Origin: Crambe crambe
Taxonomy: Eukaryota; Porifera; Demospongiae; Poecilosclerida; Crambeidae
Direction: 5' to 3'
NCBI GenBank assembly: GCA_963924555.1
Contig: OZ004588.1
Span: 5,456,001 to 5,520,000, forward strand
DNA: 64,000 nt
The notes beneath the pieces were generated by a model, which did not search any database, was not told the DNA's origin, and was given only the letters and a program-made list of their open reading frames with translations. The position numbers and the translations under genes are program-made. Shown piece after piece: positions 2,890-48,288 of this stretch; within the stretch, counting starts at the first letter, position 1; each line of letters begins with the position of its first letter.

Positions 2890-2904
2890 ATGAGTGAACC
2901 AAGG
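2890..2904 (+). CDS. Five-codon first exon (MSEPR), gene 1
   Basis: ATG AGT GAA CCA AGG is followed directly by the consensus donor GTAAGTAT and ends in phase 0. Gene 2 has the same arrangement at 30886-30900 (MSKPR, then GTAAGTG), at the same place relative to the divergent enzyme gene. Conservation in both modules is the main support. No other evidence of transcription is visible. Confidence 0.55.
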
Positions 2905-5900
2905 GTAAGTATATCTTTATTTGGGGTCTGGCTGGTGCATGGGTTGCCTTGGAATTTTTGGTCATGCTGAAGCATTAGTGCACACATACGTAGGCACAAA
3001 TTATTGTTAAATGTTTGTGTGTGTGAATTTTAATTTGGAGGTATTGTTGAGTCACATGCATTAAAAGATGACTAGGTAAACATATAGTGGCATAAAGTGC
3101 AGAAGCTTCAAATCAAGACTTCTGGAATTAAAATTATAAACACTGGAGAGCCAGTAGACCCTCACTTATCCGAACTCGATGGGACCAACCCAAATTTGGA
3201 TATGTGATATGTGAAGCAGTATTTGAAATTGAATTTTAACATTTTACACACACTCAAGAACTGGTGGTAAATGATAGCAATATCATTTGCTCTAGGTTTC
3301 CAAATACTATATCTTTTAGAAGCAACAAGAAAGGCCAGGTGCAGGGTAGACTAGAGAGTCTCGAGATGATATACTTATCTGGCCCTCACTTATAAAACTG
3401 CTCAGGATTAATCATGTACATGCTATAAATTTATATGCATGTTTTGCAGCATCTACATCCTGCAAACCACTGACACTGCATGTAGCTATCTGTTTACTTG
3501 GACTGAAGTTAGAGCATTCTAATGGCTGCTGAGATGTAACAGATACATAGATACACACAGATACAACTGAGTACTGTAACCCTTGTGCATTATGCATGCT
3601 GCATTGAGGGTTAATATAACTAGGGAAATGTACAGCATTTGAGCCACAGCGAGCGAGTGAGCAAGTATTCCTTCTAGGCTTTTGTGCTGATATCCATTTC
3701 CTTAGAAGATTTTGCTGTGAATTATGTATGTGGCAGGCAGCTGCATACATAGAAAGCTATAATGCTTACCTCAAAGCACTTAGATAAGCCTAGTGCCTAC
3801 AATCGGCTTAGATAAGCCTTGCCTGCTGCCCAAAAGGCTGTAGAATCAATCTTGCAATTACAATTTGAGTGTGGGGATTATGCACACACAGGGTGCTACT
3901 ATTGCACTAGGTACGCCTGGGGCATTTTGGATATACACTTATCATTATTATATATGACCTGAGAGTCAGCTTGCTCGCTGAATAATATGGCATAAAATCA
4001 ATGGTATGTCACTTATTCCCTCTGAATTATTCATGCTATACCAAGAGACCAATTTGTTTTTCATAGATGTAGGCGTAGGAAGGGGGTGCTAGAGGGGCTG
4101 GAGCCTCCCCCCCCTCCTCCACCCCAATAATTTTTATGAACCTGATTACATGTCATAAAATTATACTACTATATATGATCATGTATACAAAGTTAATGTC
4201 CAGTAGTGCCACAGGCCCTTGAATAATTTTCCTGCAGGAGGGACATGCCCCCAGACCCTAAATGGCACATTTCATGCACACTGTAGTAGTCAGCCCCCCC
4301 CCCCCCCCCAAAAAAAAAAAATAATGTATATATATATATATATACATGGCCTTTTTTGTTTGTCATTGTTTGTCATTGTTTGTTTGTTTGTTTGTTTGTT
4401 TGTTTGTTTCTTGTTGTTGTTGTTTTGCTTATTACTGAGTTATTCTTTCACGAGCAATGGAGATTTCCCCATAACCTCATGTGGTCACTCAATCTGACCA
4501 TGATCAGAGATATATAAGTGGTAACTAAAGGTTACCTCTCCATGAATGCTAGAGCAATCAGATTTTACCTCCCTCCAACCCCACAGCACACAATATTTTA
4601 ATAGCCATTAGTTAAATCTAAATGGATAGAATTGCTTCATTAGCATAATGTGCTGTGCAAGAGAGTTACATACATGCATTAATAAATTAAAACCACTCAG
4701 ATGGATCCACTATGCTGCTGATCCCTAGAATTCCAAGCATTGTGGGTGAGTGTGATGTTCCAGCTTCTTTTCATTGCCATTTGACTAAACTGAGCAGTGT
4801 ACTTGCCCCACAATGCATTCCTTTAGTATTATCAGGGATCAGCAGTGTAGTCTTAGACTTTATTGGAACCCATCAAAGAAGTTTTGATGACATACGTACA
4901 GCTTGGAATGCATCAACTGATGACCATCCTACTCCCCATGTTCAACAACTTTTTCCGTATTAATAAAGTTATATATGTATGGGGCAACTCTAGAATTTCC
5001 CCCTGACATACATACTTATACCTCTTTGCATTAGTATGAAGTGTTTTTGTTTTTTTGTATTTTCCCCCCATACACCCGATTATCAAAACCTCTCTTATGT
5101 ATCTGCACGGCTCCTTATCTCTAGCCACCTAAGGATGTAAGTTAGTTTTGCATTCATTTTCCGTTTTACTTCACTGTTATCTATATCATGTGTGATGAAT
5201 AATTACTTCAGGAAGTAAGTTATCTCTATCTAAATAATATATATGCAATTGATCTTCACCTCTTCTATTATCTCTGCAGAAAGTAAGTTCCTCTAGCTCA
5301 TATTTATACCTCATGGCGGCATAAAGCCAATTCAAACTTGGATGAAACTCTTTATTATTTCCCAATCTAATCATCAAAACTTCTCTCTTCTATGTACATG
5401 GTTTCTTATTTCTAGCCACCTAAGGATGTAAGTTGGTTTGTATACTGTCTCACCACTTTCTGTTCTACTTCCTATGCAATTTGTATGCCTTCTAACATGT
5501 GATTGACTTCAGGAAGTAAGTTACTTTCTATCCATATGCAATTGATTTCACCTCTTCTATTTTGTATCTCTGCAGAAAGTGAGTTCCTCCAACTCATATT
5601 TTGTACTTTAGCCACTTCAAACTTTGAACTCTCATTATTTGATTTTCCAACCAAATCATCAATGGCTTCTTATCTCTAGCCACCTAAGGATGTAAGTTAG
5701 TTTGTATACTGTCTCACCACTTTCTGTTCCACTTCCTATTCAATTTGTATGCCTTCTAACATGTGAATGGATTCAGGAAGTAAGTTATTTTCTATCTATT
5801 ATACACAATTGATTTCACCTCTTCTATTATCTCTGCAGGAAGTAAGTTCCTCTAACTCATAATTTGTACTTCGTAGCACACAGCCACTTCAAACTTTGAA

Positions 5901-8900
5901 CTCTTATTTGATTTTCCAATCAAATCATCAATGGCTTCTTATCTCTAGCCACAAGTTAGTTTGTATACTGTCTCATCACTTTCTATTTACTTCCTATCAT
6001 ATGCAATCCATACAATATGCCTTCTAATGTGTGATGAATGATTACCTCAGGAAGTAAGTTACTTTCTCACGTTTTCTCAGCAGGTGCGTTACTCTAACTC
6101 ATACACTTCAACATAACCTTTATCTTTATTATGTATATTCAATGTTTGCTGAATATGATTTCTCAGCTTGTAAGTTCCTAGCTCATACACTTTAACTAAA
6201 ACTCTATTTATTGTGTGTTAAATGTGATTTCTTCAGCATTATAAGATACTTTATATTTTATACTAAAATATAACTTCTATACATGCTGAAGTGGTTTCAT
6301 CAGCAAGTAAGTTACTGACTCATGCACTTCAACATAGCCTTTATTATGCATGTGCTGAATGTCATTTCCTCAGATCGTAAGTTACTCTACATTTCCTGAC
6401 TCACACTTTAACTCAACCTCTATTATGCATATTCAATGTGTGCTGAATGTGATTTCCTCAGCATGTAAGTTACTCTATATTTCCTGACTCACACTTTAAC
6501 TCGACCTCTATTATGCATATTCAATGTGTGCTGAATGTGATTTCCTCAGGATGTAAGTTACTCTATATTTCCTGACTCACACTTAACTCAACCTTTATTA
6601 TGCATATTCAATGTGTGCTGAATGTGATTTCCTCAGCGTGTAAGTTACTCTATATTTCCTGACTCACACTTTAACTCAACCTCTATTATGCATATTCAAT
6701 GTGTGCTGAATGTGATTTCCTCAGCGTGTAAGTTACTCTATATTTCCTGACTCACACTTTAACTCAACCTCTATTATGCATATTCAATGTGTGCTGAATG
6801 TGATTTCCTCAGCGTGTAAGTTACTCTATATTTCCTGACTCACAATTTAACTCGACCTCTATTATGCATATTCAATGTGTGTTGAATGTGATTTCCTCAG
6901 TCTGTAAGTTACTCTATATTTCCTGACTCACAATTTAACTCGACCTCTATTATGCATATTCAATGTGTGCTGAATGTGATTTCCTCAGTCTGTAAGTTAC
7001 TCTATATTTCCTGACTCACACCTCTTTAACTCAACCTCTATTATGCATATTCAATGTGTGCTGAATGTGATTTCCTCAGGTTGTAAGTTACTCTACATTT
7101 CCTGATTCACACTTTAACTTAACCATATTCAATGTGTGCTGAATGTGATTTTATCAGGAAGTAAGTTACTCTATATTTCCTGACTCACACTTTAACTCAA
7201 CCTCTATTATGCATATTCAATGTGTGCTGAATGTGATTTCCTCAGATTGTAAGTTACTCTATATTTCCTGACTCACACCTCTTTAACTCAACCTCTATTA
7301 TGCATATTCAATGTGTGCTGAATGTGATTTTCTCAGGTTGTAAGTTACTCCATATTTCCTGACTCACACTTTAACTCGACCTCTATTATGCATATTCAAT
7401 GTGTGCTGAATGTGATTTCCTCAGGCTGTAAGTTACTCTATATTTCCTGATTCACACTTTAACTCAACCATATTCAATGTGTGCTGAATGTGATTTCCTC
7501 AGTCTGTAAGTTACTCTATATTTCCTGACTCACAATTTAACTCGACCTCTATTATGCATATTCAATGTCTGCTGAATGTGATTTCCTCAGCATGTAAGTT
7601 ACTTTATATTTCCTGACTCACACTTTAACTCGACCTCTATTATGCATATTCAATGTGTGCTGAATGTGATTTTATCAGGAAGTAAGTTACTCTATGTTTC
7701 CTGACTCACACTTTAACTCAACCTCTATTATGCATATTTCAATGTGTGCTGAATGTGATTTCCTCAGCGCGTAAGTTATTTCCTGACTCACACTTTAACT
7801 CGACCTCTATTATGCATATTCAATGTGTGCTGAATGTGATTTCCTCAGCCTGTAAGTTACTTTATATTTCCTGACTCACACTTTAACTCGACCTCTATTA
7901 TGCATATTCAATGTGTGCTGAATGTGATTTCCTCAGCCTGTAAGTTACTTTATATTTCCTGACTCACACTTTAACTCGACCTCTATTATGCATATTCAAT
8001 GTGTGCTGAATGTGATTTCCTCAGCATGTAAGTTACTTTATATTTCCTGACTCACACTTTAACTCGACCTCTATTATGTATATTCAATGTGTGCTGAATG
8101 TGATTTCCTCAGCATGTAAGTTACTTTATATTTCCTGACTCACACTTTAACTCAACCTCTATTATGCATATTCAATGTGTGCTGAATGTGATTTCCTCAG
8201 TCTGTAAGTTACTCTATATTTCCTGACTCACACCTCTTTAACTCAACCTCTATTATGCATATTCAATGTGTGCTGAATGTGATTTCCTCAGGTTGTAAGT
8301 TACTCTACATTTCCTGATTCACACTTTAACTTAACCATATTCAATGTGTGCTGAATGTGATTTTATCAGGAAGTAAGTTACTCTATATTTCCTGACTCAC
8401 ACTTTAACTCAACCTCTATTATGCATATTCAATGTGTGCTGAATGTGATTTCCTCAGATTGTAAGTTACTCTATATTTCCTGACTCACACCTCTTTAACT
8501 CAACCTCTATTATGCATATTCAATGTGTGCTGAATGTGATTTTCTCAGGTTGTAAGTTACTCCATATTTCCTGACTCACACTTTAACTCGACCTCTATTA
8601 TGCATATTCAATGTGTGCTGAATGTGATTTCCTCAGGCTGTAAGTTACTCTATATTTCCTGATTCACACTTTAACTCAACCATATTCAATGTGTGCTGAA
8701 TGTGATTTCCTCAGTCTGTAAGTTACTCTATATTTCCTGACTCACAATTTAACTCGACCTCTATTATGCATATTCAATGTCTGCTGAATGTGATTTCCTC
8801 AGATTGTAAGTTACTCTATATTTCCTGACTCACACTTTAACTCGACCTCTATTATGCATATTCAATGTGTGCTGAATGTGATTTCCTCAGCATGTAAGTT

Positions 8901-11900
8901 ACTTTATATTTCCTGACTCACACTTTAACTCAACCTCTATTATGCATATTCAATGTGTGCTGAATGTGATTTTCTCAGGTTGTAAGTTACTCTATATTTC
9001 CTGACTCACACTTTAACTCGACCTCTATTATGCATATTCAATGTGTGCTGAATGTGATTTCCTCAGCATGTAAGTTACTTTATATTTCCTGACTCACACT
9101 TTAACTCAACCTCTATTATGCATATTCAATGTGTGCTGAATGTGATTTCCTCAGCGTGTAAGTTAGCCTGACTCATACACTTCAACTTGACCTCTATTAT
9201 GCATATAAAATGTGTGCTGAATGTGATTTCCTCAGCCTGTAAGTTACTCTATATTTCCTGATTCACATTTTAACTCAACCATATTCAATGTGTGCTGAAT
9301 GTGATTTCCTCAGTCTGTAAGTTACTCTATATTTCCTGACTCACAATTTAACTCGACCTCTATTATGCATATTCAATGTGTGCTGAATGTGATTTCCTCA
9401 GCTTGTAAGTTACTCTATATTTCCTGACTCACACTTTAACTCGACCTCTATTATGCATATTCAATGTGTGTTGAATGTGATTTCCTCAGTCTGTAAGTTA
9501 CTCTATATTTCCTGACTCACAATTAAACTCGACCTCTATTATGCATATTCAATGTGTGCTGAATGTGATTTCCTCAGTCTGTAAGTTACCCTATATTTCC
9601 TGACTCACACCTCTTTAACTCAACCTCTATTATGCATATTCAATGTGTGCTGAATGTGATTTTCTCAGGTTGTAAGTTACTCTATATTTCCTGACTCACA
9701 CTTTAACTCGACCTCTATTATGCATATTCAATGTGTGCTGAATGTGATTTCCTCAGGCTGTAAGTTACTCTATATTTCCTGATTCACACTTTAACTCAAC
9801 CATATTCAATGTGTGCTGAATGTGATTTCCTCAGTCTGTAAGTTACTCTATATTTCCTGACTCACAATTTAACTCGACCTCTATTATGCATATTCAATGT
9901 GTGCTGAATATGATTTCCTCAGCTTGTAAGTTACTCTATATTTCCTGACTCACACTTTAACTCGACCTCTATTATGCATATTCAATGTGTGCTGAATGTG
10001 ATTTCCTCAGCGTGTAAGTTACTCTATATTTCCTGACTTACACTTTAACTCGACCTCTATTATGCATATTCAATGTGTGCTGAATGTGATTTCCTCAGCA
10101 TGTAAGTTACTTTATATTTCCTGACTCACACTTTAACACAACCTCTATTATGCATATTCAATGTGTGCTGAATGTGATTTTCTCAGGTTGTAAGTTACTC
10201 TATATTTCCTGACTTACACTTTAACTCGACCTCTATTATGCATATTCAATGTGTACTGAATGTGATTTCCTCAGCGTGTAAGTTAACCTGACTCATACAC
10301 TTCAACTTGACCTCTATTATGCATATAAAATGTGTGCTGAATGTGATTTCCTCAGCCTGTAAGTTACTCTATATTTCCTGACTCACACTTAACTCAACCT
10401 TTATCATGCATATTCAATGTGTGCTGAATGTGATTTCCTCAGCGTGTAAGTTACTCTATATTTCCTGACTCACACTTTAACTCGACCTCTATTATGCATA
10501 TTCAATGTGTGCTGAATGTGATTTCCTCAGCATGTAAGTTACTTTATATTTCCTGACTCATACTTTAACACAACCTCTATTATGCATATTCAATGTGTGC
10601 TGAATGTGATTTTCTCAGGTTGTAAGTTACTCTATATTTCCTGACTTACACTTTAACTCGACCTCTATTATGCATATTCAATGTGTACTGAATGTGATTT
10701 CCTCAGCGTGTAAGTTAACCTGACTCATACACTTCAACTTGACCTCTATTATGCATATAAAATGTGTGCTGAATGTGATTTCCTCAGCCTGTAAGTTACT
10801 CTATATTTCCTGATTCACACTTTAACTCAACCATATTCAATGTGTGCTGAATGTGATTTCCTCAGTCTGTAAGTTACTCTATATTTCCTGACTCACAATT
10901 TAACTCGACCTCTATTATGCATATTCAATGTGTGCTGAATGTGATTTCCTCAGCTTGTAAGTTACTCTATATTTCCTGACTCACACTTTAACTCGACCTC
11001 TATTATGCATATTCAATGTGTGTTGAATGTGATTTCCTCAGTCTGTAAGTTACTCTATATTTCCTGACTCACAATTAAACTCGACCTCTATTATGCATAT
11101 TCAATGTGTGCTGAATGTGATTTCCTCAGTCTGTAAGTTACCCTATATTTCCTGACTCACACATCTTTAACTCAACCTCTATTATGCATATTCAATGTGT
11201 GCTGAATGTGATTTTCTCAGGTTGTAAGTTACTCTATATTTCCTGACTCACACTTTAACTCGACCTCTATTATGCATATTCGATGTGTGCTGAATGTGAT
11301 TTCCTCAGGCTGCAAGTTACTCTATATTTCCTGATTCACACTTTAACTCAACCATATTCAATGTGTGCTGAATGTGATTTCCTCAGTCTGTAAGTTACTC
11401 TATATTTCCTGACTCACAATTAAACTCGACCTCTATTATGCATATTCAATGTGTGCTGAATGTGATTTCCTCAGTCTGTAAGTTACCCTATATTTCCTGA
11501 CTCACACATCTTTAACTCAACCTCTATTATGCATATTCAATGTGTGCTGAATGTGATTTTCTCAGGTTGTAAGTTACTCTATATTTCCTGACTCACACTT
11601 TAACTCGACCTCTATTATGCATATTCAATGTGTGCTGAATGTGATTTCCTCAGGCTGTAAGTTACTCTATATTTCCTGATTCACACTTTAACTCAACCAT
11701 ATTCAATGTGTGCTGAATGTGATTTCCTCAGTCTGTAAGTTACTCTATATTTCCTGACTCACAATTTAATTGGACCTCTATTATGCATATTCCATGTGTG
11801 CTGAATGTGATTTCCTCAGCGTGTAAGTTACTCTATATTTCCTGACTCACAATTTAACTCGACCAATATTATGCATATTCAATGTGTGCTGAATGTGATT

Positions 11901-14900
11901 TCCTCAGATTGTAAGTTACTCTATATTTCCTGACTCACAATTTAATTGGACCTCTATTATGCATATTCAATGTGTGCTGAATGTGATTTCCTCAGCTTGT
12001 AAGTTACTCTATATTTCCTGACTCACAATTTAACTCGACTTCTATTATGCATATTCAATGTGTGTTGAATGTGATTTCCTCAGTCTGTAAGTTACTCTAT
12101 ATTTCCTGACTCACAATTTAACTCGACCTCTATTATGCATATTCAATGTGTGCTGAATGTGATTTCCTCAGGCTGTAAGTTACTCTATATTTCCCGATTC
12201 ACACTTTAACTCAACCATATTCAATGTGTGCTGAATGTGATTTCCTCAGTCTGTAAGTTACTCTATATTTCCTGACTCACACTTTAACTCGACCTCTATT
12301 ATGCATATTCAATGTGTGCTGAATGTGATTTCCTCAGCTTGTAAGTTACTCTATATTTCCTGACTCACACTTTAACTCGACCTCTATTATGCATATTCAA
12401 TGTGTGTTGAATGTGATTTCCTCAGCATGTAAGTTACTTTATATTTCCTGACTCACACTTTAACTCAACCTCTATTATGCATATTCAATGTGTGCTGGAT
12501 GTGATTTTCTCAGGTTGTAAGTTACTCTATATTTCCTGACTCACACTTTAACTCGACCTCTATTATGCATATTCAATGTGTGCTGAATGTGATTTCCTCA
12601 GGCTGTAAGTTACTCTATATTTCCTGATTCACATTTTAACTCAACCATATTCAATGTGTGCTGAATGTGATTTCCTCAGTCTGTAAGTTACTCTATATTT
12701 CCTGACTCACAATTTAACTCGACCTCTATTATGCATATTCAATGTGTGCTGAATGTGATTTCCTCAGTCTGTAAGTTACTCTATATTTCCTGACTCACAC
12801 TTTAACTCGACCTCTATTATGCATATTCAATGTGTGCTGAATGTGATTTCCTCAGTCTGTAAGTTACTATATATTTCCTGACTCACACCTCTTTAACTCA
12901 ACCTCTATTATGCATATTCAATGTGTGCTGAATGTGATTTTCTCAGGTTGTAAGTTACTCCATATTTCCTGACTCACACTTTAACTCGACCTCTATTATG
13001 CATATTCAATGTGTGCTGAATGTGATTTCCTCAGGCTGTAAGTTACTCTATATTTCCTGATTCACACTTTAACTCAACCATATTCAATGTGTGCTGAATG
13101 TGATTTCCTCAGTCTGTAAGTTACTCTATATTTCCTGACTCACAATTTAACTCGACCTCTATTATGCATATTCAATGTGTGCTGAATGTGATTTCCTCAG
13201 CTTGTAAGTTACTCTATATTTCCTGACTCACACTTTAACTCGACCTCTATTATGCATATTCAATGTGTGCTGAATGTGATTTCCTCAGCGTGTAAGTTAC
13301 TCTATATCTCCTGACTCACAATTTAACTCAACCTCTATTATGCATATTCAATGTGTGTTGAATATGATTTCCTCAGTCTGTAAGTTACTCTATATTTCCT
13401 GACTCACACTTTAACTCAACCTCTATTATGCATATTCAATGTGTGCTGAATGTGATTTCCTCAGTCTGTAAGTTACTCTATATTTCCTGACTCACACTTT
13501 AACTCAACCTTTATTATGTATATTCAATGTGTGCTGAATGTGATTTCCTCAGATTGTAAGTTACTCTATATTTCCTGACTCACACTTTAACTCAACCTCT
13601 ATTATGCATATTCAATATGTGCTGAATGTGATTTCCTCAGGATGTAAGTTACTCTATATTTCCTTACTCACAATTTAACTCGACCTCTGTTATACATATT
13701 CAATGTGTGCTGAATGTGATTTTATCAGGAAGTAAGTTACTCTGTTTCCTGACTCACACTTTAACTCAACCTCTATTATGCATATTTACAATGTGTGCTG
13801 AATATGATTTCCTCAGATTGTAAGTTACTCTGTTTCCTGACTCACACTTTAACTCAACCTCTATTATGCATATTCAACGTGTGCTGAATGTGATTTCCTC
13901 AGCCTGTAAGTTACTTTATCATACACTTCAACAGAACCTCTCTAGCTTTCTCTAGCTTCCTCTAGCTATTGTATGCTTTATTCTATGTTTATTTCCTCAT
14001 TCATGAACTTCAACTCGTGTGCTTATGTGATTTCTTTAGCCTGTAAGTGGCTTTCTAATTTCCAAATCAATTTAATTTCTTTAATCTATATTCCTTAGGA
14101 AATAAGTTGCTATATAATTAAACAAGCTTATAATATACATTAAATTTTAAATTTAATGTTTGTGAAATATTATTATCCTCCATACTAACTTGTGATGTCC
14201 TTATAATTATAAATTAATGCACTTTTGTCTACAGGAAGTGAGTATCTCTATAGTTCATCAACCAATGACTTTTACCTTTTCATCAATAAACTAATATGAT
14301 TGCTTTAGGAAGTAAGTTAGTATTAGCTTGTGGTATTTATTAATTAGCTGACTCATGATATCATCCACCAAATTCTAAATGGCTCAAGCAAGTAACTCAA
14401 TATTATGGATAGAGTGCAGTTAACTTTTACATAATTATAGATGCTTCCAAGAGTCTCAGAGCCTATATCTTATGGTGGGCTTGATGTTCTCGGAGAAACA
14501 TCAGTTTCTTACAAGCAAGAACCCATCACACATGTCTGGGAAGACCATGGTTTCAGGATGAGCTTTCCAGGAAACGCCTTACCTCTGGACAAGAGTAAGT
14601 GTATTTTACAAGTCAAAGCTGCTATTTCTGGTCGATTTGTATTCCCTGCTGCCACTGAGCTGATAAGTGGAGTCTACAGTATTGAGAGCTCTTCTCTTTT
14701 TGAGAAACCTGTCACTGTTGGAATAGAACACTTCTCGTCTGATGGTCACATGGATGATCTCATATTCGCTATTAATTCTGATTACAAACCTCCTTATACC
14801 TTCCGAGAAATGCAGGGTGGTATTTTTCCTGCTGGTGAAAATTTTGGGGAAATAAATGTGCAGTACTTCTCGATATTTGCTATTCTCAGAAGAAAGCTAC

Positions 14901-15992
14901 GCCTTTTACTTGTGGAAAATAGATACTGTGCTTCTCTCCATCATGGAGTTTCTTCCCCCTATAACTGGGATATCTACTTTGCAATTTTGAAAGATGCTGA
15001 ACTTTTTAAAACGGTAATTATGCAATTAGGTATAATGTGTACCACTGAAACTCTTCTCTTTTTGATTCTTTCTTTCATTGCAGCTTCTGAAGAAATACTT
15101 TTTAGATGAAGGAGTTCTGGCTACATCACTCGTTCACCAGATTGTGAAATTTTCTGGCAGAGAGATCAGACTTGGAATTCCCAATCGAAAGGTAGAAATA
15201 CAGGTTGGATGGACTTTACAACCATTAGTACATCCTGTGGTAAGTATATGTAACGTACATGAAGCTATGATTTGCTTCATTTAATTGTTTTGATCATCTC
15301 ATGATGTGTTCACTGTACTATCTCGGTCATTAGATAAAGAGAAGTGAAGTGGATGAATTTGTCGGTGGATGGCCACCTCTACGTAAACTTCATCTCAAGT
15401 GGATGGAAAGTGAAGAATCATCAGATTTAAATTATGAACTCAAGCTAATTGGAGCAAGGCAACCATGTGATTTCTTCATGATGGTTATGGATAAGCCTAA
15501 TAAAGGTCAGTCATGTTTTAGTGGAATCTCAATGTGAACTCACTTATTGTATCCCATGTAGTAGCTATTAAATTATACACATGCACTTACGGGTATACCA
15601 CTCTAATCAGTAGTCTAATGATATTTTGAGCTAACAATAGCTATAACCAACAAAAATATCATTATGCAGAAACCGCTAGTACTGGTCCAGAATCCCCTCG
15701 CACCACACCACTGGACCATGGCAAGATATGTGAGCAGTTGTATCCCCATGCATCACAATGGCAAGCCATTGGACAGTACCTTGGGTTTCTCCCCGAAGAG
15801 CTGAATGCCATACAAGTGAAGCCATTACTCCTTGCTGGAGCACCAAAGAGTTACCTTAGTGACATGCTTGCCTCTTGGCTGCAATGGGCCCCTGGAGATG
15901 CCAGGGGAAGCACATCTTATGCCACTCTACCAGCTCTCAAGTCAGCTGTGGATAAGACAGGATTGGGACGTACAGCAATTGAGTTGTCTTAA
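2890..15992 (+). CDS. ZU5-Death domain gene 1 with microexon array (whole gene model)
   Basis: The proposed gene has a five-codon first exon (2890-2904, MSEPR, then GTAAGTAT), a 2.2-kb intron, an array of about 104 microexons (5125-14311), then four ordinary exons: 14441-15013, 15084-15239, 15334-15505 and 15670-15992. Exon 1, every microexon and the first ordinary exon are all in phase 0, so the frame is open from ATG to TAA whichever microexons are kept. The body is about 407 residues. The array would add up to about 112 more between residue 5 and the ZU5 region. ZU5-Death proteins act in intracellular signalling through Death-domain assembly; a role here is inference. An alternative is that translation starts at ATG 14441 and the array is one long intron. 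Confidence 0.65.
2905..5124 (+). other. Intron 1 of ZU5-Death gene 1
   Basis: No coding exon recognised. It contains a small foldback element (about 4700-4880, inverted copies of GCTGATCCCT), a C-run/A-run and a (GTTT)n tract (4304-4420). At about 4069-4130 it holds a copy of a dispersed GC-rich sequence that recurs near 31390 and 60330. The foldback element and the GC-rich sequence also occur in intron 1 of gene 2 (31386-32115), so they predate the module duplication. Confidence 0.5.
4378..4420. repeat. (GTTT)n / (GTT)n microsatellite
   Basis: A run of GTTT units grades into GTT units within intron 1 of gene 1, just after a short (TA)n tract at about 4327-4343. The open frame across it is low-complexity and not a gene. 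Confidence 0.9.
5125..6376 (+). CDS. Microexon array 1, proximal part (12-nt and 3-nt units)
   Basis: The first units alternate in threes. A 12-nt exon CCACCTAAGGAT (PPKD) sits between TCTCTAG and GTAAGTT at 5125, 5416 and 5680. Next comes a 3-nt GAA after CTTCAG or TTCAG (5212, 5513, 5777). Then comes a 3-nt AAA or GAA after CTCTGCAG (5280, 5576, 5839). A fourth 12-nt copy near 5947 has lost its core and donor. Later 3-nt units are GAA 6051, CAG 6081 (donor GTGCGT), CTT 6167, CAA 6304 and ATC 6374. The copy near 6237 has a damaged donor (TATAAG). All lengths are multiples of three and read in phase 0. The decoded stretch is a Pro/Lys/Asp/Glu repeat. Gene 2 has the same start (32309-33566). 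Confidence 0.6.
6462..13905 (+). repeat. Microexon array 1, core: 87 mini-introns separated by single codons
   Basis: Tandem units of 88 bp, with 78-, 81- and 91-bp variants. Each has CAG, three variable bases, GTAAGTTA, about 60 conserved bases, CTGAATGTGATTTCCTCAG. First bases of the triplets: TCT 6901, 6989, 7503, 8201, 8715, 9314, 9490, 9578, 9835, 10866, 11042, 11130, 11387, 11475, 11732, 12084, 12250, 12680, 12768, 12856, 13113, 13377, 13465; GTT 7080, 7337, 8292, 8549, 8979, 9669, 10187, 10619, 11221, 11566, 12514, 12947; CGT/CGC 6637, 6725, 6813, 7768, 9155, 10011, 10275, 10443, 10707, 11820, 13289; CAT 6462, 7591, 8025, 8113, 8891, 9067, 10099, 10531, 12426; GCT 7425, 8637, 9757, 11309, 11654, 12172, 12602, 13035; CTT 9402, 9923, 10954, 11996, 12338, 13201; ATT 7246, 8458, 8803, 11908, 13553, 13817; CCT 7849, 7937, 9236, 10356, 10788, 13903; GAA 7158, 7679, 8370, 13729; GAT 6550, 13641. 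None is a stop. One donor is GCAAGT (after 11309). Confidence 0.9.
14040..14311 (+). CDS. Microexon array 1, distal units
   Basis: The last units have diverged introns but keep the plan: CCT at 14040 (acceptor CTTTAG, donor GTAAGTGG), GAA at 14235 (TCTACAG / GTGAGT) and GAA at 14309 (GCTTTAG / GTAAGTTAG). A unit at about 14100 (CCTTAG GAA) has donor ATAAGT and is probably dead; its counterpart in gene 2 (38802) has an intact GTAAGT. Survival of 3-nt spacing, acceptor and donor in units whose intron bodies no longer match the core repeat argues for selection on the exon structure. All read in phase 0 into the exon at 14441. Confidence 0.6.
14441..15992 (+). CDS. ZU5-Death body of gene 1 (four exons)
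   Basis: Exons are 14441-15013 (191 codons), 15084-15239 (52 codons), 15334-15505 (ends phase 1) and 15670-15992 (TAA), with clear GT-AG boundaries such as TTTCATTGCAG and GTAAGTAT. The first exon opens directly after an AG. Its first ATG may be an internal Met, since the same AG-ATG junction occurs in gene 2. Residues about 10-110 match a ZU5 domain (HVWEDHGFRMSFPGNALP, then ILQVKAAISGRFVFP and VTVGIEHF). The last exon encodes a Death-type helical domain (WQAIGQYLGFLPEELNAIQ, later LASWLQWAPGDA and LPALKSAVDK). No signal peptide or membrane segment is visible, so a cytoplasmic adaptor is likely. It is strongly similar to gene 2 along its whole length. Confidence 0.87.
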
Positions 15993-17141: not shown

Positions 17142-20100
17142 CTACCACACAAAATCTGGCAGTACTTCAGAAGCTTCCTTCACATTATTATTAGTTGATG
17201 ATGCAGCCAAATCATCTATACGACCATCAAACAACCCAAATATGCCACCTGCATAACAAATTGAATAATGCTTAGTTAAACATAGCAGCTACATTAGGCC
17301 AGGCAAAATTAATTATTAGTTTCTCATCCTTCCATTTCCTCTTTTCTATGAGGCATGTAGCAATTTATAATTTACTATGTAAACCGTTTGTACTAGGACA
17401 TACTGTTGTAATGAATGAAGCAAGTACTACAGTAGTTTGCAGAACAGTTGTCATGCATAATAAGGCAGAGATAGGCAGCGGCTCTGGAGTAGCTAGTGGC
17501 TAAGAACAATAGGGCTATGAAAACATTTTATTGTTCCCCAGCCACAAATACTTCAAGGCCACCACCTATCCCTGCCTGATGCATGACAACTGTTCTGCAA
17601 ACTACTGTATACAAACTGCATTGTACAAACACCATCTTGAACCGTTTCCCACTTTTTGCTGCCTCTTTGTATCATATCATGTGATCAAGTAACGCAATCA
17701 CACTTTGACTATAGCTGGATTATAAATTATTGATGCGGGTTGAAAAATGTGGTTAGGGATGATAAACTAGTAAATAATTTTATCTGGCCTTAGCTATTTA
17801 TGTAGCTACAATGGAAAATTTTAAAGTATCATTGTAATGAATGACTCAATCAACTTGTGAATAACTCAACAGCTACTTGAAATTGACAACTATAGCTATG
17901 CATAAGAGCCCTCTCAAAAAGAGACAATCTAGAAGTATATACCTTTTGTATACATAATAGTTAGACAACGAGACCAAGGGATCTACGGTCTATTTAGAAA
18001 CCTGAGAGCCCTGGGCTGTAGCGTCCCGAGCGCAGCGAGGGCGCTACTAAGGGCCCGAAGGTTTCTAACCAGACCGTAGATCCCGTTGGTCGAGGTGTCT
18101 AACTTATTTAGACTATAGCCAATCACTGGAGTTGTTTAACTTACCTCAACACGCACTTGGAAACAATAACCATGGTTTTTAAATGCAACAAACATGAACC
18201 AGAGCGCACCTAGAAACAATAACCGTGGCCACTGCGATGCGTTGCTAGAATTAGACCAATTGGAATGACCATCTTTACCGGGTTTACCTAGGGCAAGTGA
18301 ATTCTAAGTGCTATAAGGCGTGATTCTAAGTGCCATGAGGCGTGATTCTAAGTGAATAGAATTCATCAAATGGACCAATCAGATTCCTTGATTGTGACTA
18401 GCTATAGTCTAAATCTATATAGATGATGTACATAGTCATGTCATTGCCATTTTGAGGGGCAAAAAGAACGGAACATGGTGAAGAGTTGTTGTGTAGTACC
18501 TTATGCCCATCACCAATACTAGTTATGTGCTCGTAGCATAGAAAGTCGAGCGAAGTAACACAACTTGCTTTTGCAAAACCTTAAATGTTGCATTATGAGT
18601 TGCATACCCTCTTCTCATAGAGTCTATAAGCCCTATCCCTTTCATTTCTTTTATCAAGCCTTGACCGTCTCTGTTCCGCTGATTCAGAGCTTCTTCTGGC
18701 TCTATCCTTTGCATTCCTTCGGTCTAACCTTGCTGCTCAGTTTTGGAGCAGTGCTTCACTTTCCATCATTAGCTATTTTGCGCATGCTACGCAAACTACG
18801 AGCTAACTATTCCTACTTCACTCCCTTTATACCATCTTGGCCTATCATGGGAGTGAAGTAGGAATAGTTAGCTCGTAGTTTGGTAATATTGGTGATGGGT
18901 AAGGGGTTACTTGACTGATGTTCACTCCCTTGTTGCTGAACTATTTTGAACCGCAAACAGCCATCCCTACTTCCGTTTTATCAGAGAGTGCTTCAGAGAG
19001 TGCGGTAGCACTCTCTAAGTAGGGATGGCAGGTCAAAGTCCATAGGACAGTATAAACTAAAAACTTCTTTCTCTTCTACTCTCACTCTACAGGTTCTCAG
19101 AAGGCTACAGTGAATTATTATATCTACAAAGAAGAGAGGAGAATGTTCAAAAGCCGAAAATTCATTCGCCAACATAAGAAAAAAACGAGTTCTAAAATTG
19201 ACTTTTCGTTCTTTTTCTTTATCAGAGAGTGCGCTAGCACTCTCTAAGTAGGGATGGCGGGTCAAAGGTCATAAGACTGTATAAACTAAAAACTCTTCTT
19301 TCTCTTCTACCCTTGCTCTACAGGTTCTCAGAAGGCTACAGTGAGATACTACTTCTACAAAGAAGAGAGGAGAGTGTTCAAAAATCAAAAATTCATTCGC
19401 TAACATAAGAAGAAAACGAGTTCTAAAATTGACTTTTGTTCATTTTCTTTATCAGAGAGTGCGGTAGCACTCTCTAAGTAGGGATGGCAGGTCAAAGTCC
19501 ATAGGACAGTATAAACAAAAAACTCTTCTTTCTCTTCTACCCTTACTCTACAGGTTCTCAGAAGGCTACAGTGAATTATTATATCTACAAAGAAGAGAGG
19601 AGAATGTTCAAAAGCCAAAAATTCATTCGCCAACATAAGAAAAAAACGAGTTCTAAAATTGACTTTTCGTTCTTTTTCTTTATAATAATAAGGATAATAA
19701 TAATAATAAGATCGACGTACCGACTTACTGGCTATAGTCATCAAAATTCTGCTTTGGCCATCTGTTAGAGCGGCACCTAGAGGCTGATCTTTTGCTATTA
19801 GTTTTGACTAAGGCTCTACTTCACTATTCGATAGCACTCGGAACACAGCTGCTAATCTTTCTACGCCATTTTGAAGGGGGCGGGGCTTATGGGCGGAGCC
19901 ACGTAAGCTTAAGTTTAGCTATAGCCAAGGTCTTCATTCATTATCTGATGATGTTCCAGTCACTCCTTGCTGAATTACAGTACAGATGCTCATCCTATAT
20001 AGTAGCATTATAGCCAGTACTTGGCTGTAGTGTAGTCAGCTCACTTCACCATGCCGTGTACATGTCATTTACATTGCTGTTGCTGTAAAGTTTTATATCA

Positions 20101-29100: not shown

Positions 29101-30804
29101 TCTATCTGTGAAATAGCTTCAGCGTTACGACCCCACAAGGGGGGAGGGGCTAAACCTTACTAGCCAGTTAACTACGTACCTTATTGCCACTGAAAAGGCA
29201 TCCCGTGAGGTCATCACGCTTCACAGCCACTTCAAATCCAGGAGGTATTCCAGGCAAATTCCATTTGTGTATGGGCGTCGGCTTCAGACAAAGCTGGAAC
29301 ACAATATCAAAATATTAATATTACTAGCAAAGTCAGCCATAAATAAGCAGCTGTGAGACTTTTAGCTAGTACTAAACATCTGACTGCGAGATTAGATAGA
29401 CGCCACTTTATCACTAGCAAACAGAGCTGCACTAATCATAGATAGAGGGGGAAGGGATGGAAGCTGAAGTACAAATTGCAAATGATCTGCAGATGCATTG
29501 ACATGATGTTATCGCACATGAGCGCTTATGATGTACCATCTAGCAGTTTAATGATGGCATTGATATAGAACTATGGTAATGGCTAGTGGTATTGTAAGAG
29601 GAGTGATTTCTGTTGTGTTGGAAGATGAGAAGTTAGTGCAGTTCACAAGAACTGATGCTATGACCTTCTAATTTCACATTACTGGAATCCGTGCTATTAA
29701 TCAATACGCACATCTATCCGGTGAGGTGCATCTGAATCGCATGAGCTGAGCTGATGTTACAGCTGCAACTTTTGTGTCAGAGAGAGCTAGCTATATATAT
29801 ATATAGTACCTTGGAAGCTGGAAAGACTTCCTTGACTCGGGTTAGAAGCCCTATAGTCTCAATAACCACCTGCCCTGCTTGACTTGACATGGCCTTAGGG
29901 CTGACCAGTCTATTATGCCGGCATAATTTCAGGTATAATAGGTACTCCCAAACATCAGGCATAATGGGTGCATAAGTATGCAAAGTGTTAGGATCAAGGA
30001 AGTTTAGTCGTTTCATGAACTACGAGGCGTGACGACCCCTGGTGAAAATAGGGGTCTGGTGACACCGCTATACTGAACCAGTTTTTACCCCACGATTCTG
30101 GGGGGAAGTTGCGGTATCGTGAATATCATTAGTAAAGAGCGACTTCCATGCATGGCTAAATCTTTGGAAGGTTGCTGCAATTGAGTTGGCTAGGGCACCA
30201 TAGATCTTCCATGCATGGAACCCGAGACTGAATCTTTGAAGGTTGCTACAATTGAGTCAGCTAAGCGCCTGGGATAAGACAGCCTGAACAGTTGCAGGTT
30301 TTGCAGATGCTTTCGGGATCTTGCCTATGGGGTATGGGAAGAGCCTTTACTATGCAGCTCTGGATCCCCTGAACCATCATTAATTGAAGAACAAGTATGT
30401 GCATTGCACAGGCAGCTGACCGTCCATGACCGTGATGACATCGTCAATTTGTGCTGATCACATTCCATTTAGAACTGGTCCGGTATAGTGGTGTCACCAG
30501 ACCCTTATTTTTTGTCGTGCCTCCAGACTATGGAATGCATGTAATAATGGCATTTTATCAGTGCATTATAGCTAGCTACAACACGGCTGAACAACCTTTA
30601 ATCTGAGTACATGAAGAAAACTTTGATTTCTCAGTATTAAACAATTGAGAGCATAGCTAATGGGGTGAAACACTTTTAAGGCGCGGGCATGACTACTTAC
30701 TGTACTAATTATCACACCTTTGTTCTCCATTTCGGTTGTACCGCCAGTTTTTCAGCCCACGAAGGAGCCTCATAGGCTTCAACCACACCTTCACTAGAGG
30801 ACAT
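17142..30804 (-). CDS. ACC deaminase / D-cysteine desulfhydrase-like PLP enzyme, copy B
   Basis: Nine exons, in gene order: 30718-30804, 29180-29293, 28284-28451, 27698-27825, 26056-26152, 25866-25966, 23869-24029, 23677-23817, 17142-17248. All phases agree and the product is 367 residues. Family features: KPTPIHKW and KREDLTG near the N-terminus; SGNK followed by RKLDF, whose Lys (residue 67) is the PLP Schiff-base lysine; GGVGSNHAR (substrate loop); PAGGAS; AAGSQGTVCGLA (PLP phosphate loop); final GGIFGLFDGR. These are fold type II enzymes that deaminate ACC or remove sulfide from D-cysteine; which substrate applies cannot be told here. The donors after exon 1 (GTGTGA) and exon 3 (GTTATT) are weak. 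Intron 8 is 6.4 kb because of inserted foldback elements. It sits head to head with ZU5-Death gene 2. Confidence 0.85.
17960..18103. mobile_element. Short TIR element (MITE-like)
   Basis: Inverted arms of about 50 bp, with the left arm starting GTTAGACAACGAGACCAAGG and the right arm ending in its near complement (GTTGGTCGAGGTGTCTAAC). Both arms contain GGATCTACGGTCT. The centre is GC-rich with no coding capacity. Confidence 0.7.
18792..18882. repeat. Perfect inverted repeat, 34-bp arms
   Basis: CAAACTACGAGCTAACTATT (18792 on) continues to CTCCC at 18825, is followed by a 23-bp loop, and returns as the exact complement at 18849-18882. The inner GGGAGTGAAGTAGGAATAG is shared with the centres of the large hairpins at 20730-21178 and 23094-23541, so these are relatives. 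Confidence 0.75.
18980..19681. repeat. Three tandem copies of a ~230-bp repeat
   Basis: Units begin at 18980, 19221 and 19451 with ATCAGAGAGTGC and contain the palindrome-like GAGAGTGCGNTAGCACTCTC. Each unit also holds a pyrimidine stretch ending in CTCTACAG, which resembles a splice acceptor, followed by about 100 bp of open frame. The units are strongly similar, with small indels in the first. Function unknown. Confidence 0.8.
20730..21178. repeat. Hairpin with 217-bp arms
   Basis: The left arm 20730-20946 and right arm 20962-21178 are near-perfect reverse complements around a 15-bp loop. Termini are ACAAGTGAATGC and its complement. If transcribed it would fold into a long double-stranded RNA stem. 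Confidence 0.9.
21786..22053. repeat. Hairpin with 113-bp arms
   Basis: The left arm 21786-21898 and right arm 21941-22053 are near-perfect complements with a 42-bp loop. Termini (ACAAGTGAGCAC) resemble those of the 217-bp hairpins, but the inner sequence differs. Confidence 0.88.
23094..23541. repeat. Second hairpin with 217-bp arms
   Basis: A near-identical copy of the 20730-21178 hairpin, arms about 23094-23310 and 23325-23541. It lies 136 bp before exon 8 of enzyme copy B, so a transcript of the enzyme gene would carry it. Confidence 0.88.
24030..25865 (-). other. Intron 6 of enzyme copy B
   Basis: 1.8 kb between exons 23869-24029 and 25866-25966; copy C has only 299 bp at this place. 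A segment with facing copies of AAGGGAGGGT (about 24130-24310) suggests a further small inverted element. No exon or RNA gene recognised. Confidence 0.5.
26497..27492. mobile_element. TTAA-flanked TIR element, about 1 kb, non-autonomous
   Basis: The ends are GGGGGCTCCGACAT (26497 on) and the complement of GGGGGCTCCAACAT (ending 27492), flanked on both sides by TTAA (26493-26496 and 27493-27496). TTAA duplication is the hallmark of piggyBac-type insertion; membership in that superfamily is inference. The interior is GC-richer than its surroundings, with CCAGAGCCAG-like and GAGTCCG-like words, and has no transposase frame. It lies in intron 4 of enzyme copy B and is absent from copy C. Confidence 0.65.
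30024..30523. mobile_element. TIR element (about 500 bp) in intron 1 of copy B
   Basis: Left end GAGGCGTGACGACCCC, followed by GGGGTCTGGTGACACCGCTA. The right end is the near complement (TAGTGGTGTCACCAGACCC, then GTCGTGCCTC). Arms are about 50 bp. The interior holds two related segments containing CCATGCATGG and CTTTGGAAGGTTGCTGCAAT-like words. No coding capacity. Confidence 0.7.
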
Positions 30805-30885
30805 AGCACCCTAGATCTCTGCGCAGGCTTCAAGTTTGCGCGCGCGTAAACTCTGCACATGTGCACAAGACACAGTCCAGGAAGA
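30805..30885. promoter_or_regulatory. Probable shared divergent promoter, module 2
   Basis: 81 bp between the ATG of enzyme copy B (minus) and the first ATG of ZU5-Death gene 2 (plus). It contains TTGCGCGCGCGTAAACTCT (30836-30854), identical to the motif at 2812-2830 in module 1. Enzyme copy C has no ZU5-Death partner upstream and I do not find the motif there. Confidence 0.45.
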
Positions 30886-30900
30886 ATGAGTAAACCAAGG
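30886..30900 (+). CDS. Five-codon first exon (MSKPR), gene 2
   Basis: ATG AGT AAA CCA AGG then GTAAGTG, phase 0. It differs from the gene 1 exon (2890-2904) by one codon, Glu to Lys. Position relative to the divergent enzyme start is conserved. Confidence 0.55.
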
Positions 30901-33900
30901 GTAAGTGTATTTTCTCTGGAGTGTGGTTGGTGCATGGTCTCATTTTTTGAAGCTAGCTACAATATTTAATGAAAAATACTGAAGTCTGTGCTAACCCACA
31001 CGTATTAAGGCACAGCTAATGGTTAAAAGGTCTGCAGATCTGCTGCTGCACAAGCTATAGTAGCTAGGTAATTATCAAGTCACTGGCTAAGAATGCATAC
31101 AAGTGGAGGTAGCATAATTATTGAGTCACATCACATGCATTAAAAGATGGGTTGGTAATGATCAATGAACATAATTATTACAGTGAGTGGCATAAAGTAT
31201 AGGTTGTGTAGAAGATATCAATCAAGCTTTCTGGGAGCATTCTAATGGCAGCTAGATGTAACAGATACATAGATACACACACAGAGAGAGCACATGTATG
31301 TGCACTGCACTGAGGGTTAATCATAAAATCAATGGTATCACTTATACAGTGGAATCCTTGATGCTAGTGCCAATTTCAAGTTGTTATTCATAAGCGTAGA
31401 GAAGGGGGTGCTAGAGGGGCTGGAGCCCCCCCCCCCTAATATTTTCAAGATGGGGTAGAGCACCCCAGACCCCTAAATGGCACATTGTAGTCAGCCCCTT
31501 TGTTGGTGTTTTGCTTATTACTGAGCCAGTCTTTCACAATCGCAGAGCAATGGTGATTTCCCCATAACCTCATGTGGTCACTCCATCAGACCATGATCAG
31601 AGATAACTCTCCCTATCAGTGTAATCAAGTGGTAGCTAAAAGTTACCACTACATTATAGGATGCCATGAAATGCTAGAGCAATTAGATTTCACTCCCCCC
31701 AGCACACAATAACACAGTATAAAATTAATGGTTGAACCTATACGTAATTTTAATATAAATCTAAATGACTACGTAGGTCTAATTGCAGAACTAAATAGCT
31801 ACGTAATACTCATAGTTATCTTCAGAATTGAAAATGAATTTCATTAGCATAATGTGCTGAGACAATTACATGCATTAAAAATAAGGCATTCCAAATTAAA
31901 AGCTCTTTGGTGGGTCCAATACACTGTTGATAGCTACTAGGGGAATTATTACAAAGTACTGTGGGGTGAGTGCACATGGCATGCTAACGTAATGTTGCAG
32001 CTTCTTTTCATGACAACTTTGGGTAAACTGAGCATGTGCACTTGCCTCACAATGCTTGATTTGCATTTCCCTAGGGATCAATCAGCTGTGTAGTCTTAGA
32101 CTTATTGGACCCATCAAAGAGATACTGCATCTCTCCCTAAAGTTCCTTCCTAGCCTTAAGAACATAAGATTTTGGTAACTAATAAATAATCATCCTATTC
32201 AGATTGATGCTCCTACACTATAATGTGAATTCTGGATTAATCTTTACAATTTTTTTTTTCCCCATACACCCGATCATCAAAACCTATCTCATGGCTCCTT
32301 ATCTCTAGCCACCTAAAGATGTAAGTTAGTTTTGCATATATTATTATAATACTCTCTTGTCATTTTCCATTTTTATGTACTTCTATGTTATCTACATATA
32401 TCATGTGTGATGAATAATAACTTCAGGAAGTAAGTTATCTCTATCAATTGATTTTTCACTTCTTCTATTATTATCTCTGCAGGAAGTAAGTTCCTCTAAC
32501 TCATATTTATACCTCATGGCACAATTAAAGCCACACTTCAAACTTGGATTTGCTATAAATAACCTAACATAGTTTCTTATCTCTAGCCACCTAAGGATGT
32601 AAGTTAGTTTGTATACTGTCTCACCACTTTCTGTTCCACTTCATATGCAATTTGTATGCCTTCTAACATGTGATCGACTTCAGGAAGTAAGTTACTTTCT
32701 ATCTTATTATACTCAATTGATTTCACCTCTTCTATTATCTCTGCAGAAAGTAAGTTCCTCTAACTCATGTACTTTGTGGCACACAACCACTTCAAACTTT
32801 GAACTCTCATTATTTGATTTTCTAACCAAATCATCAATGGCTTCTTATCTCTAGCCACCTAAGGATGTAAGTTAGTTTGTATACTGTCTCACCACTTTCT
32901 GTTCCACTTCCTATGCAATTTGTATGCCTTCTTATATGTTAAGGAAGTAAGTTATTATATATACGGAATTGATTTTCATCTCTCTGCAGAAAGTAAGTTC
33001 TCTAATTTTGTACTTCATGGTACAAAGGCACATCAAACTTTGATTTTCCAACCAAATTATCAATGGCTTCTAAATAATCTCTAGCCACCTAAGGATGTAA
33101 GTTAGTTATAGTATAATGTCTCACCACTTTCTGTTCTACTTCCTATGGAATTTGTATTATGTGTGTGATTCACTTCAGGAAGTAAGTTACTTTCTATCTA
33201 CAATTGATTTTCACCTCTTCAGCATTATATCTCTGCAGAAAGTAAGTTCTTCTGACTATTTATGGCATGCACACAAAGCCATTGGAATGAAACTCTTCCT
33301 AAAATTTTTTACTGCTATCATCAATCTTCTCTTACATGTGGTTTTTTTATCTCTAGCCACCTAAAGATGTAAGTTAGTTTGTATACTGTCTCACCATTTT
33401 TTATCCATACAATATGCCTTCTAATGTGTAATGAATGATTACTTCAGGAAGTAAGTTACTTTCTCACGCTTTCTCAGCAGGTACGTTACTCAAACTCATA
33501 CACTTCAACATAACCTTTATCTTTATTATGTATATTCAATGTTTGCTGAATATGATTTCTCAGCTTGTAAGTTAATCTTTATTTCCTAACTCATACACTT
33601 CAACTAAAACTATTTATTGTGTGCTAAATGTGCATTATAAGATACTTTATTCTGAAATATAACCTCTATACATGGTTTCGTCAGCGAGTAAGTTACTGAC
33701 TTATGCACTTCAACATAACCTTTATTATGCATGTGCTTAATGTGACTTTCTCATGCAGTCTGTAAGTTACTCTATATTTCTTACACTTAAATAATAATAT
33801 TCAATGTGTGCTGAATGTGATTTCCTAAGATTGTAAGTTACTCTATATTTTCTGACTTGTACACTTCCACTTGACCTCTATTATACATATTCAATGTGTG

Positions 33901-42000: not shown

Positions 42001-46323
<4,323 letters not shown>

Positions 46324-47550: not shown

Positions 47551-48288
47551 TCAATCATCCAAATAGCATTTCTGCATTGATGGAGTATAGCACTTGTCAC
47601 CACATAGGCTCTGATAGACTCCACAAACTATCCCACCATTGTGACATCGTTGCGATGAAGGAGTGTAGCAACGTTTACCACACACACTCTGATAGGCTCC
47701 ACAAACTACCCTTCCATTGTGGCATCTCTCAGATGAAGGATCATAGCACTGGTCACCACACCTACTCTGATAGAATCCACAAACGACTCCACCACTGAGG
47801 CATCTTTGTGAAGAAGGAGTGTAACAGAGATCACAAACTACTCCTCCACTATGGCATCTATGTGTTGAAGGATTATAACACTGATTCCCACATCTTTTCT
47901 GATGGACCCCACAAACCACTCCATCACTGTAACATTTTTGTGATGAAGGAGTGTAGCACCGGTGACCACACGCGCTCTGATGAAATTCGCAGGCTACTCC
48001 TCCACCGTGACACCTTTTTAACGAAGGATCATAACACTGGTCACCACACCTGCGCTGATGAGCTCCACAAACTACTCCTCTACTGAGGCACTTTTGAGAG
48101 GGAGGACTGTAGCATCGGTTACCACATCGACTCTGATAGTGGTCACAAACCACTGCAGCAGAGCAAGTTTGTCCATATAAGGATAACATCACAGCAGACC
48201 CAATTACTAAAAGCACAAAACTTCTCATTTTGATTCTTTTGATGAAAGTGAGCAAAAAATTAGCTACATATACTAGCATGCCATGCAT
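47551..48288 (-). CDS. Secreted Cys-rich repeat protein
   Basis: A 245-codon open frame in one exon. The likelier start is the second Met (ATG at 48226-48228), which gives a clean signal peptide (MRSFVLLVIG, hydrophobic, ending near CSA). The rest is eight tandem repeats of about 26 residues with the plan C-x6-C-G-x2-C-Y-x-P-S-x3-C, four cysteines each, separated by G-G-V-V-type linkers. Repeat five lacks eight residues, including one of the four cysteines. The CG-x-x-CY-x-P core resembles the short fungal carbohydrate-binding family CBM52, but I would not assign that function. Expected to be extracellular and disulfide-rich. Two plus-strand frames overlapping it are antisense shadows. Confidence 0.8.
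   Translation of the reverse strand: MHGMLVYVANFLLTFIKRIKMRSFVLLVIGSAVMLSLYGQTCSAAVVCDHYQSRCGNRCYSPPSQKCLSRGVVCGAHQRRCGDQCYDPSLKRCHGGGVACEFHQSACGHRCYTPSSQKCYSDGVVCGVHQKRCGNQCYNPSTHRCHSGGVVCDLCYTPSSQRCLSGGVVCGFYQSRCGDQCYDPSSERCHNGRVVCGAYQSVCGKRCYTPSSQRCHNGGIVCGVYQSLCGDKCYTPSMQKCYLDD

Follow-up and report, generated by a model that had tools for sequence, protein, structure and literature searches.

The window analysed here, a 64,000-bp stretch of the genome of the sponge Crambe crambe (C11:5456001-5520000; contig OZ004588.1), carries two related genes on its forward strand in which a short first coding exon and a set of signalling-like body exons are separated by a long array of candidate exons, most of them a single codon in length. 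Array 1 (5125-14311, plus strand) comprises 102 clean units, defined in a consensus search as [CT]AG-exon-GT[AG]AG, the exon being a single codon in 99 of them and 12 nt long, encoding PPKD, in three. The 12-nt exon, CCACCTAAGGAT, lies at 5125-5136 (plus strand) and recurs at 5416-5427 and 5680-5691, each copy being followed by two GAA/AAA single-codon exons. Two further in-register units have other donors (CAG/GTGCGT and GCT/GCAAGT), and together with the clean units they account for the "about 104" consecutive units of the initial annotation, which had described an acceptor AG, three bases (12 in three early units) and a GTAAGT donor. Its description of the repeat as a complete intron is likewise borne out: each repeat holds a donor, a CTGAAT word, a pyrimidine tract and an AG, and the intron measures 85 nt in 57 of the 84 cases measured, introns 10 nt shorter also being common. 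A homogeneous 88-bp part (6351-13919, plus strand), detected independently as a tandem repeat by Tandem Repeats Finder (TRF), has almost identical introns, and its codons are the most variable within array 1. Array 2 (32309-38989, plus strand), absent from the initial annotation, is of the same design, with 73 clean units, the exon being 3 nt long in 68 and 12 nt long in five.

The spacing between acceptor and donor was also counted in a way that presupposes none, by taking the nearest upstream CAG/TAG to each GTAAGT. Over nine array regions of the C11 cluster this distance is exactly 3 nt in 481/529 cases and 12 nt in 19/529; with overlapping matches and one extra stretch the counts are 496/545 and 20/545. 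In the remaining window, both strands included, 3 of 20 GTAAGT words lie 3 nt from a CAG/TAG. This count, free of any assumption on spacing, excludes chance. Exon lengths in the arrays are 3 and 12 nt, with one of 6 nt, and the largest single array has up to 137 clean single-codon exons. At two positions (L040 5588 and L045 3458, reversed) CAG-GAACATCAG-GAA-GTAAGT is readable with an exon of either 12 or 3 nt, the frame being the same, an ambiguous acceptor pair.

Genes 1 and 2 (g1 and g2) belong to a group of nine close relatives (g1-g9) on C11:5.30-5.50 Mb, and all nine have an array upstream. Six further loci, whose arrays are built on other intron repeats, bring the loci with arrays to at least 15, several of these arrays having been read in part. 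On C1, 115-bp units lead to a Roc-COR GTPase exon at L047; similar units stand behind a first exon at L048; and at L053 115-bp units have a ZU5 frame, 1.8 kb past the array, and a Death frame downstream of them, the join of array and body being putative. On C11, 108-bp units occur with a Roc exon at L052 and with no body within the stretch read at L051, and 111-bp units occur at L054, for which the next downstream Roc match (7149162-7149770) lies beyond the stretch read. The repeat periods of 75, 88-90, 108-111 and 115 bp all carry the same acceptor-codon-donor core.

Genome-wide counts cover the 143-Mb genome in 119 contigs. CAG-NNN-GTAAGT has 8,926 matches, and a control with 4 nt in place of the codon has 1,458. 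At least 2,781 of the 8,926 are a fixed opposite-strand word, CAGCATGTAAGT, inside the C1 115-bp repeat; three C1 arrays contain 140 such words per 126 exact ones, which scales to about 3,090. In L047, L048 and L053 the 115-bp unit carries CAGCATGTAAGTAA on the strand opposite the exons, with about 2,800 exact copies in the genome, and this inflates naive counts of splice motifs. We estimate from these counts that the genome may hold some 4,400-4,700 single-codon exons. A Roc query matches about 23 loci on C1:8.14-9.36 Mb, four on C11:5.83-5.89 Mb and 15 on C11:7.08-7.28 Mb among the 150 of 291 candidates scored, arrays having been read beside only a few of these loci; array-pattern matches are scattered over C1:8.14-9.38 Mb and C11:7.13-7.27 Mb. 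The exact array patterns gave no match in viral_contigs or genome_contigs. Three other loci were rejected as array loci: the ZU5 loci on C3 and C6 (one each), whose upstream stretch has no array but tandem repeats that read by eye as ankyrin repeats, and, on C17, a Roc locus likewise without an array. Just before a Roc GTPase match on C20 (about 3829.6-3829.7 kb), possible 3-nt exons CCT and TGG lie about 104 bp apart (L056 8628 and 8732), a pair that could represent a minimal or ancestral array. At C1:8232127-8232900 and C1:8380684-8381457 (minus strand), eight TGG single-codon exons each are spaced at 105-115 bp and would encode eight tryptophans.

The first exons found upstream of the arrays keep phase 0. 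The first coding exon of gene 1, ATGAGTGAACCAAGG (MSEPR; 2890-2904, plus strand), ends in phase 0 at a GTAAGT donor and is the same or nearly the same in g4, g7, g8, g9 and gene 2, where it encodes MSKPR (30886-30900, plus strand, donor GTAAGT). Phase-0 first exons were found at nine loci in addition to gene 2, ten in all. Five C11 genes begin with MSEPR, MTEPR or MSEPTR; the first exons before the 108/111-bp arrays encode MAEKRQE, MAEKRQG and MAERRQEKKL; and the C1 first exon is MSDKKKKKEKERKKEVTSSRAAPFF. By eye, MSEPR, MAEKRQE and MSDKKKKKEKERKKEV... look unlike signal peptides. Downstream of array 1, on the plus strand, lie a ZU5-like first body exon (14441-15013, phase 0), a second (15084-15239, phase 0) whose frame and splice sites were set by eye, a third (15334-15505) also placed by eye, and a last, Death-like exon with the stop (15670-15992). 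In gene 2, also on the plus strand, the ZU5-like first body exon (39128-39703) has 91% identity to that of gene 1, and the Death-like last body region spans 40395-40721. The ATG at the start of the gene 1 body exon is GTG in g3, g4, g5 and g6, so these four proteins need an upstream start. The sequence 5′ of genes 1 and 2 (2631-2725 and 30712-30806) has a third copy at 46222-46320, behind which TRF and GTAAGT-spacing scans found no array within the window.

The signalling bodies were assessed by profile and fold comparison. Pfam ZU5 matches 18 of 18 relatives at expectation values (E) of 1 or less (best E 3.8e-4); gene 1 scores E 0.17 for ZU5 and E 0.061 for Death, both below the Pfam cut-off. 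At L053 both domains score above it (ZU5 E 4.2e-7, Death E 9.3e-6), and at L047 Roc (E 2.9e-9) and COR-A (E 8.1e-16) are matched. The first part of the gene 1 body has as its best fold match the ankyrin-B ZU5-ZU5-UPA-DD structure (E 1.2e-3), from a weak AlphaFold model (mean predicted local distance difference test score, pLDDT, 51). The Death-domain model is poor (mean pLDDT 50), and only the model of the first body part was compared with PDB folds. Against PDB sequences the ZU5 profile gave no match at E≤1, and two matches of the Death profile (E 0.24 and 0.38) were judged to be chance. The ankyrin-B fold match and the L053 matches lend support to the tentative ZU5 and Death names of the window genes.

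Stop codons are scarce among the array codons. The 762 one-codon matches in the 15 arrays include one stop, against 48.5 expected from pooled position frequencies; the count uses overlapping matches, as a non-overlapping search would mask TAA and TGA after CAG. The lone stop, a TAA at position 39 of L045 reversed, lies outside the array, 1.6 kb before the g9 first exon; like it, the g7 ATG at 841 and the g9 CCT at 465 precede first exons, and all three are probably not array members. When each codon type is counted once per array (215 types), 9.8 stops are expected by permutation and none of 2,000 permutations was stop-free. Genome-wide, TTCAG-TRR-GTAAGTTA has 87 matches, 78 of them TGG and nine of them stops; in the same acceptor/donor context there are 883 TTA/TTG/TCA/TCG codons.

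The first two codon positions are also among the most variable columns of a unit. In gene 1 the three codon positions have heterozygosities of 0.71, 0.71 and 0.13, whereas the introns average 0.041, and the median intron column of g1 and g5 is invariant or nearly so. A profile search without a motif requirement, covering 75-114 columns, ranked codon positions 1 and 2 among the top four columns for variability in ten of ten arrays and as the first two in seven of these; an eleventh array, that of g7, was mis-registered and left out together with its two apparent TAGs. Among pairs of units with identical 61-nt flanks, the codon differs in 50% of 177 pairs in g1, 55% of 661 in g5, 36% of 11 in g3, 17% of 54 in C1a and 20% of 50 in C1b. 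Over 13 arrays, pairs with at most one mismatch in the 61 flanking nucleotides show 1739 nonsynonymous and 14 synonymous codon differences, most of them contributed by g1 and g5; of random single changes, 18-32% would be synonymous. The units share a duplication history, so that such pair counts and p values overstate independence and are descriptive only. As position 3 is spared in gene 1, hypermutation is insufficient by itself, and selection on the amino acid would spare that position. All 20 amino acids occur among the array codons, and the peptides, read from clean units only, differ sharply by gene: g1 has PPKDEK repeats followed by mixed residues, g5 an E/R/K/M-rich run of about 120 residues, C11h a G/A/Y/R-rich peptide, and C1a has LERLPRQHSLL three times.

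The donor columns are nearly invariant in nine of ten arrays, that of C1a varying at +4 and +6. Where donors deviate at +2 to +5, 8 of the 11 distinct in-array contexts have an AG-ending codon before the donor, compared with 27 of 734 perfect donors (p ~1.6e-9); related arrays share ancestry, so that independent weak-donor cases number fewer than 11, and one deviating context (g8, 2254) that precedes the first exon was left out. Of the donor consensus, it is the exonic AG that could compensate pairing with U1.

We consider it very likely that the arrays code by single-codon exons, and almost equally so that the segment they encode is built one residue per exon and joined in frame to an intracellular signalling body. 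This reading follows from the 3- and 12-nt exon lengths, the phase-0 ends, the few stops, the near-invariant donors and the hypervariable, nonsynonymous codon positions, and from the recurrence of the arrays, on different intron repeats, before both ZU5/Death and Roc-COR bodies. The initial annotation had proposed a linker assembled residue by residue before a signalling body; the lack of stops, the nonsynonymous variation, the phase-0 ends and the GTG in four of nine paralogues favour the coding part of that proposal, and "linker" may be the wrong term because ankyrin-like repeats precede the ZU5 exon in two related loci.

Several observations weigh against the coding reading, which is drawn from genomic sequence alone. 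Pooled over the arrays, the 49 sense codon types leave 11% of permutations stop-free, by which measure the lack of stops is not significant, and six of the nine genome-wide stops lie on C1 among arrays, making stops rare, not absent. The excess of nonsynonymous differences is uneven, with 9 synonymous among 45 differences in C1b, and in g2 none of 13 identical-flank pairs differs in its codon. Donors with a +6 variant (GTAAGC) do not follow AG-ending codons. The bodies of the window genes score below the Pfam cut-off, and those of some relatives look damaged, with in-frame stops in the g4 and g6 ZU5 matches and an apparent frameshift in g8, although the arrays of these three genes are stop-free. 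For g3, g5 and g6 the stretches searched yielded no first exon, and the ATG retained at the body-exon start in five of nine paralogues would allow a transcript to begin there.

Among other explanations, the repeats could be splicing ratchets or decoys that remove a long intron stepwise, with the codon irrelevant or mostly skipped. The acceptor and donor are indeed almost back to back, as in zero-nucleotide recursive splice sites, in which the two are directly adjacent and no exon is retained; in the arrays, however, 3 or 12 nt, not 0, lie between them, and a codon of no consequence should accumulate stops, drift with the rest of the repeat and change at its third position, whereas the gene 1 codons do none of these. 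We regard ratchets or decoys as improbable. The same low probability attaches to a constraint on the introns alone, with introns kept alike for the splicing of tiny exons while the codons drift freely: donors and acceptors are constrained as this would require, yet in g1 and g5 the median column taken across whole introns is invariant or almost so, 10-nt-shorter introns are frequent in g1, and free drift would be expected to leave stops and synonymous changes. That the arrays are tandem repeats might also suggest a non-coding satellite, or coding on the opposite strand, that mimics exons. At L054 (1-3506, the 111-bp array) open frames of 372, 705 and 124 residues on the reverse strand, containing a repeat about 37 residues long, speak for this and against forward-strand coding, but 48% of shuffled units of 111-bp length give such a frame by chance, the L053 array of 115-bp units holds no open frame longer than 180 residues, and repeats of four period classes share one acceptor-codon-donor core; we give this explanation hardly any weight.

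A variant of the coding reading has each mRNA take only some of the single-codon exons, so that one gene would give a large family of peptides, as in Dscam, whose exons are larger. The near-identical splice sites must compete, and the exons are multiples of three, so that the frame is kept on skipping. Against this, the g5 run rich in E/R/K/M and the C1a peptide with its three copies of LERLPRQHSLL are long and ordered and look meant for whole inclusion, and we put this variant at somewhat below an even chance.

Under the reading of the arrays as coding, each repeat would supply one complete intron and one codon, and an N-terminal segment would be assembled residue by residue. Splicing would probably proceed in steps, since the two splice sites of a 3-nt exon lie too close together to be bound simultaneously, and each step would move a perfect GTAAGT donor ahead by one codon. 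The arrays appear to grow and shuffle by unequal exchange of blocks of units, as suggested by block repeats such as a 1,379-bp block in C1a, and selection on the encoded residues would diversify the codons. Skipping any exon of 3 or 12 nt keeps the reading frame, which would allow large numbers of isoforms. If true, this would be a limit case of exon size and number, with up to about 140 residues encoded at one codon per exon in many loci, and it raises the question of how the spliceosome handles a hundred consecutive 3-nt exons. With intron and selected codon comparable within every 75-115 bp, diversifying selection on single residues would become measurable. Codons that vary far more than the surrounding DNA would amount to a hitherto undescribed source of protein diversity, a route in which single codons are swapped as cassettes and which standard gene prediction and read mapping will probably overlook.

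The segment may be a fast-evolving recognition or assembly part of immune or self/non-self signalling proteins, given that ankyrin-like repeats occupy its place in two related loci; we offer this as a tentative proposal, to which only the segment's position and the kind of body, Death or Roc-COR, point. A further step, speculative and in our judgement rather unlikely, would be a germline diversity system without somatic recombination, in which N-terminal "codon libraries", with one exon per amino acid, are found in dozens of genes for intracellular signalling, each library is rewritten a codon at a time through selection and unequal exchange, and alternative skipping yields very many recognition peptides from a single gene for immunity or self/non-self recognition.

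Elsewhere in the window, a 259-residue open frame on the minus strand (47551-48330) has a repeated cysteine-rich motif, is possibly secreted and coincides with period-78 tandem repeats, and a 230-bp tandem repeat at 18993-19683 has three copies with 90% matches.

Among the papers listed in searches of 5.39 million open-access papers, judged mostly by title and opening of the abstract and with preprints and most subscription papers outside the search, none describes a gene with arrays of single-codon exons. As an analogy, the nearest parallel is provided by the brown-algal ROCO genes, which have in-phase 72-bp phase-2 exons each encoding one leucine-rich repeat, show alternative splicing and positive selection, and are proposed to be immune receptors (PMC11378527). 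Like the C1 arrays, they combine a ROC-COR body with tandem in-phase exons and diversifying selection on the exon-encoded residues; in contrast to their 72-bp, phase-2, leucine-rich repeat exons, those described here are of 3 or 12 nt, with one codon as the unit, phase 0 and no known domain. A ROC-COR body stands behind the C1 array L047, the window genes having ZU5/Death-like bodies instead.

Schistosome micro-exon genes have 10-20 exons, most of them of 15 bp (range 3-81 bp, also given as 6-81 bp), with long introns, and encode secreted proteins (PMC10526429). Many short exons, mostly multiples of three, and rapid diversification are common to these genes and the sponge arrays; the exons of the latter are mostly single codons. 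The small exons of the aphid bicycle type are tens of bases long. One megacycle gene of this group has more than 100 microexons, and the group shows extreme divergence and phase-2 small exons (PMC9168663); it thus resembles the arrays in its unusually many microexons and its sequence divergence, and differs from them in exon phase and in lacking their arrangement of single codons within a tandem intron repeat.

That exons of 1-3 nt can be spliced is illustrated by the 1-nt exon of Arabidopsis APC11, for which stepwise removal is proposed (PMC4674806), by the plant VPS55 1-nt exons, flanked by GTRAGT donors (PMC8831610), and by the 3-bp exon of Drosophila homothorax (PMC7392893). These are single, conserved exons, whereas the arrays contain up to 137 that are hypervariable. 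In Dscam, tandemly duplicated, mutually exclusive exons encode part or the whole of immunoglobulin domains and have an immune role (PMC3236188). Tandem exons would be a source of variety in both systems, with units encoding part or all of an immunoglobulin domain in Dscam and units of a single codon in the sponge arrays.

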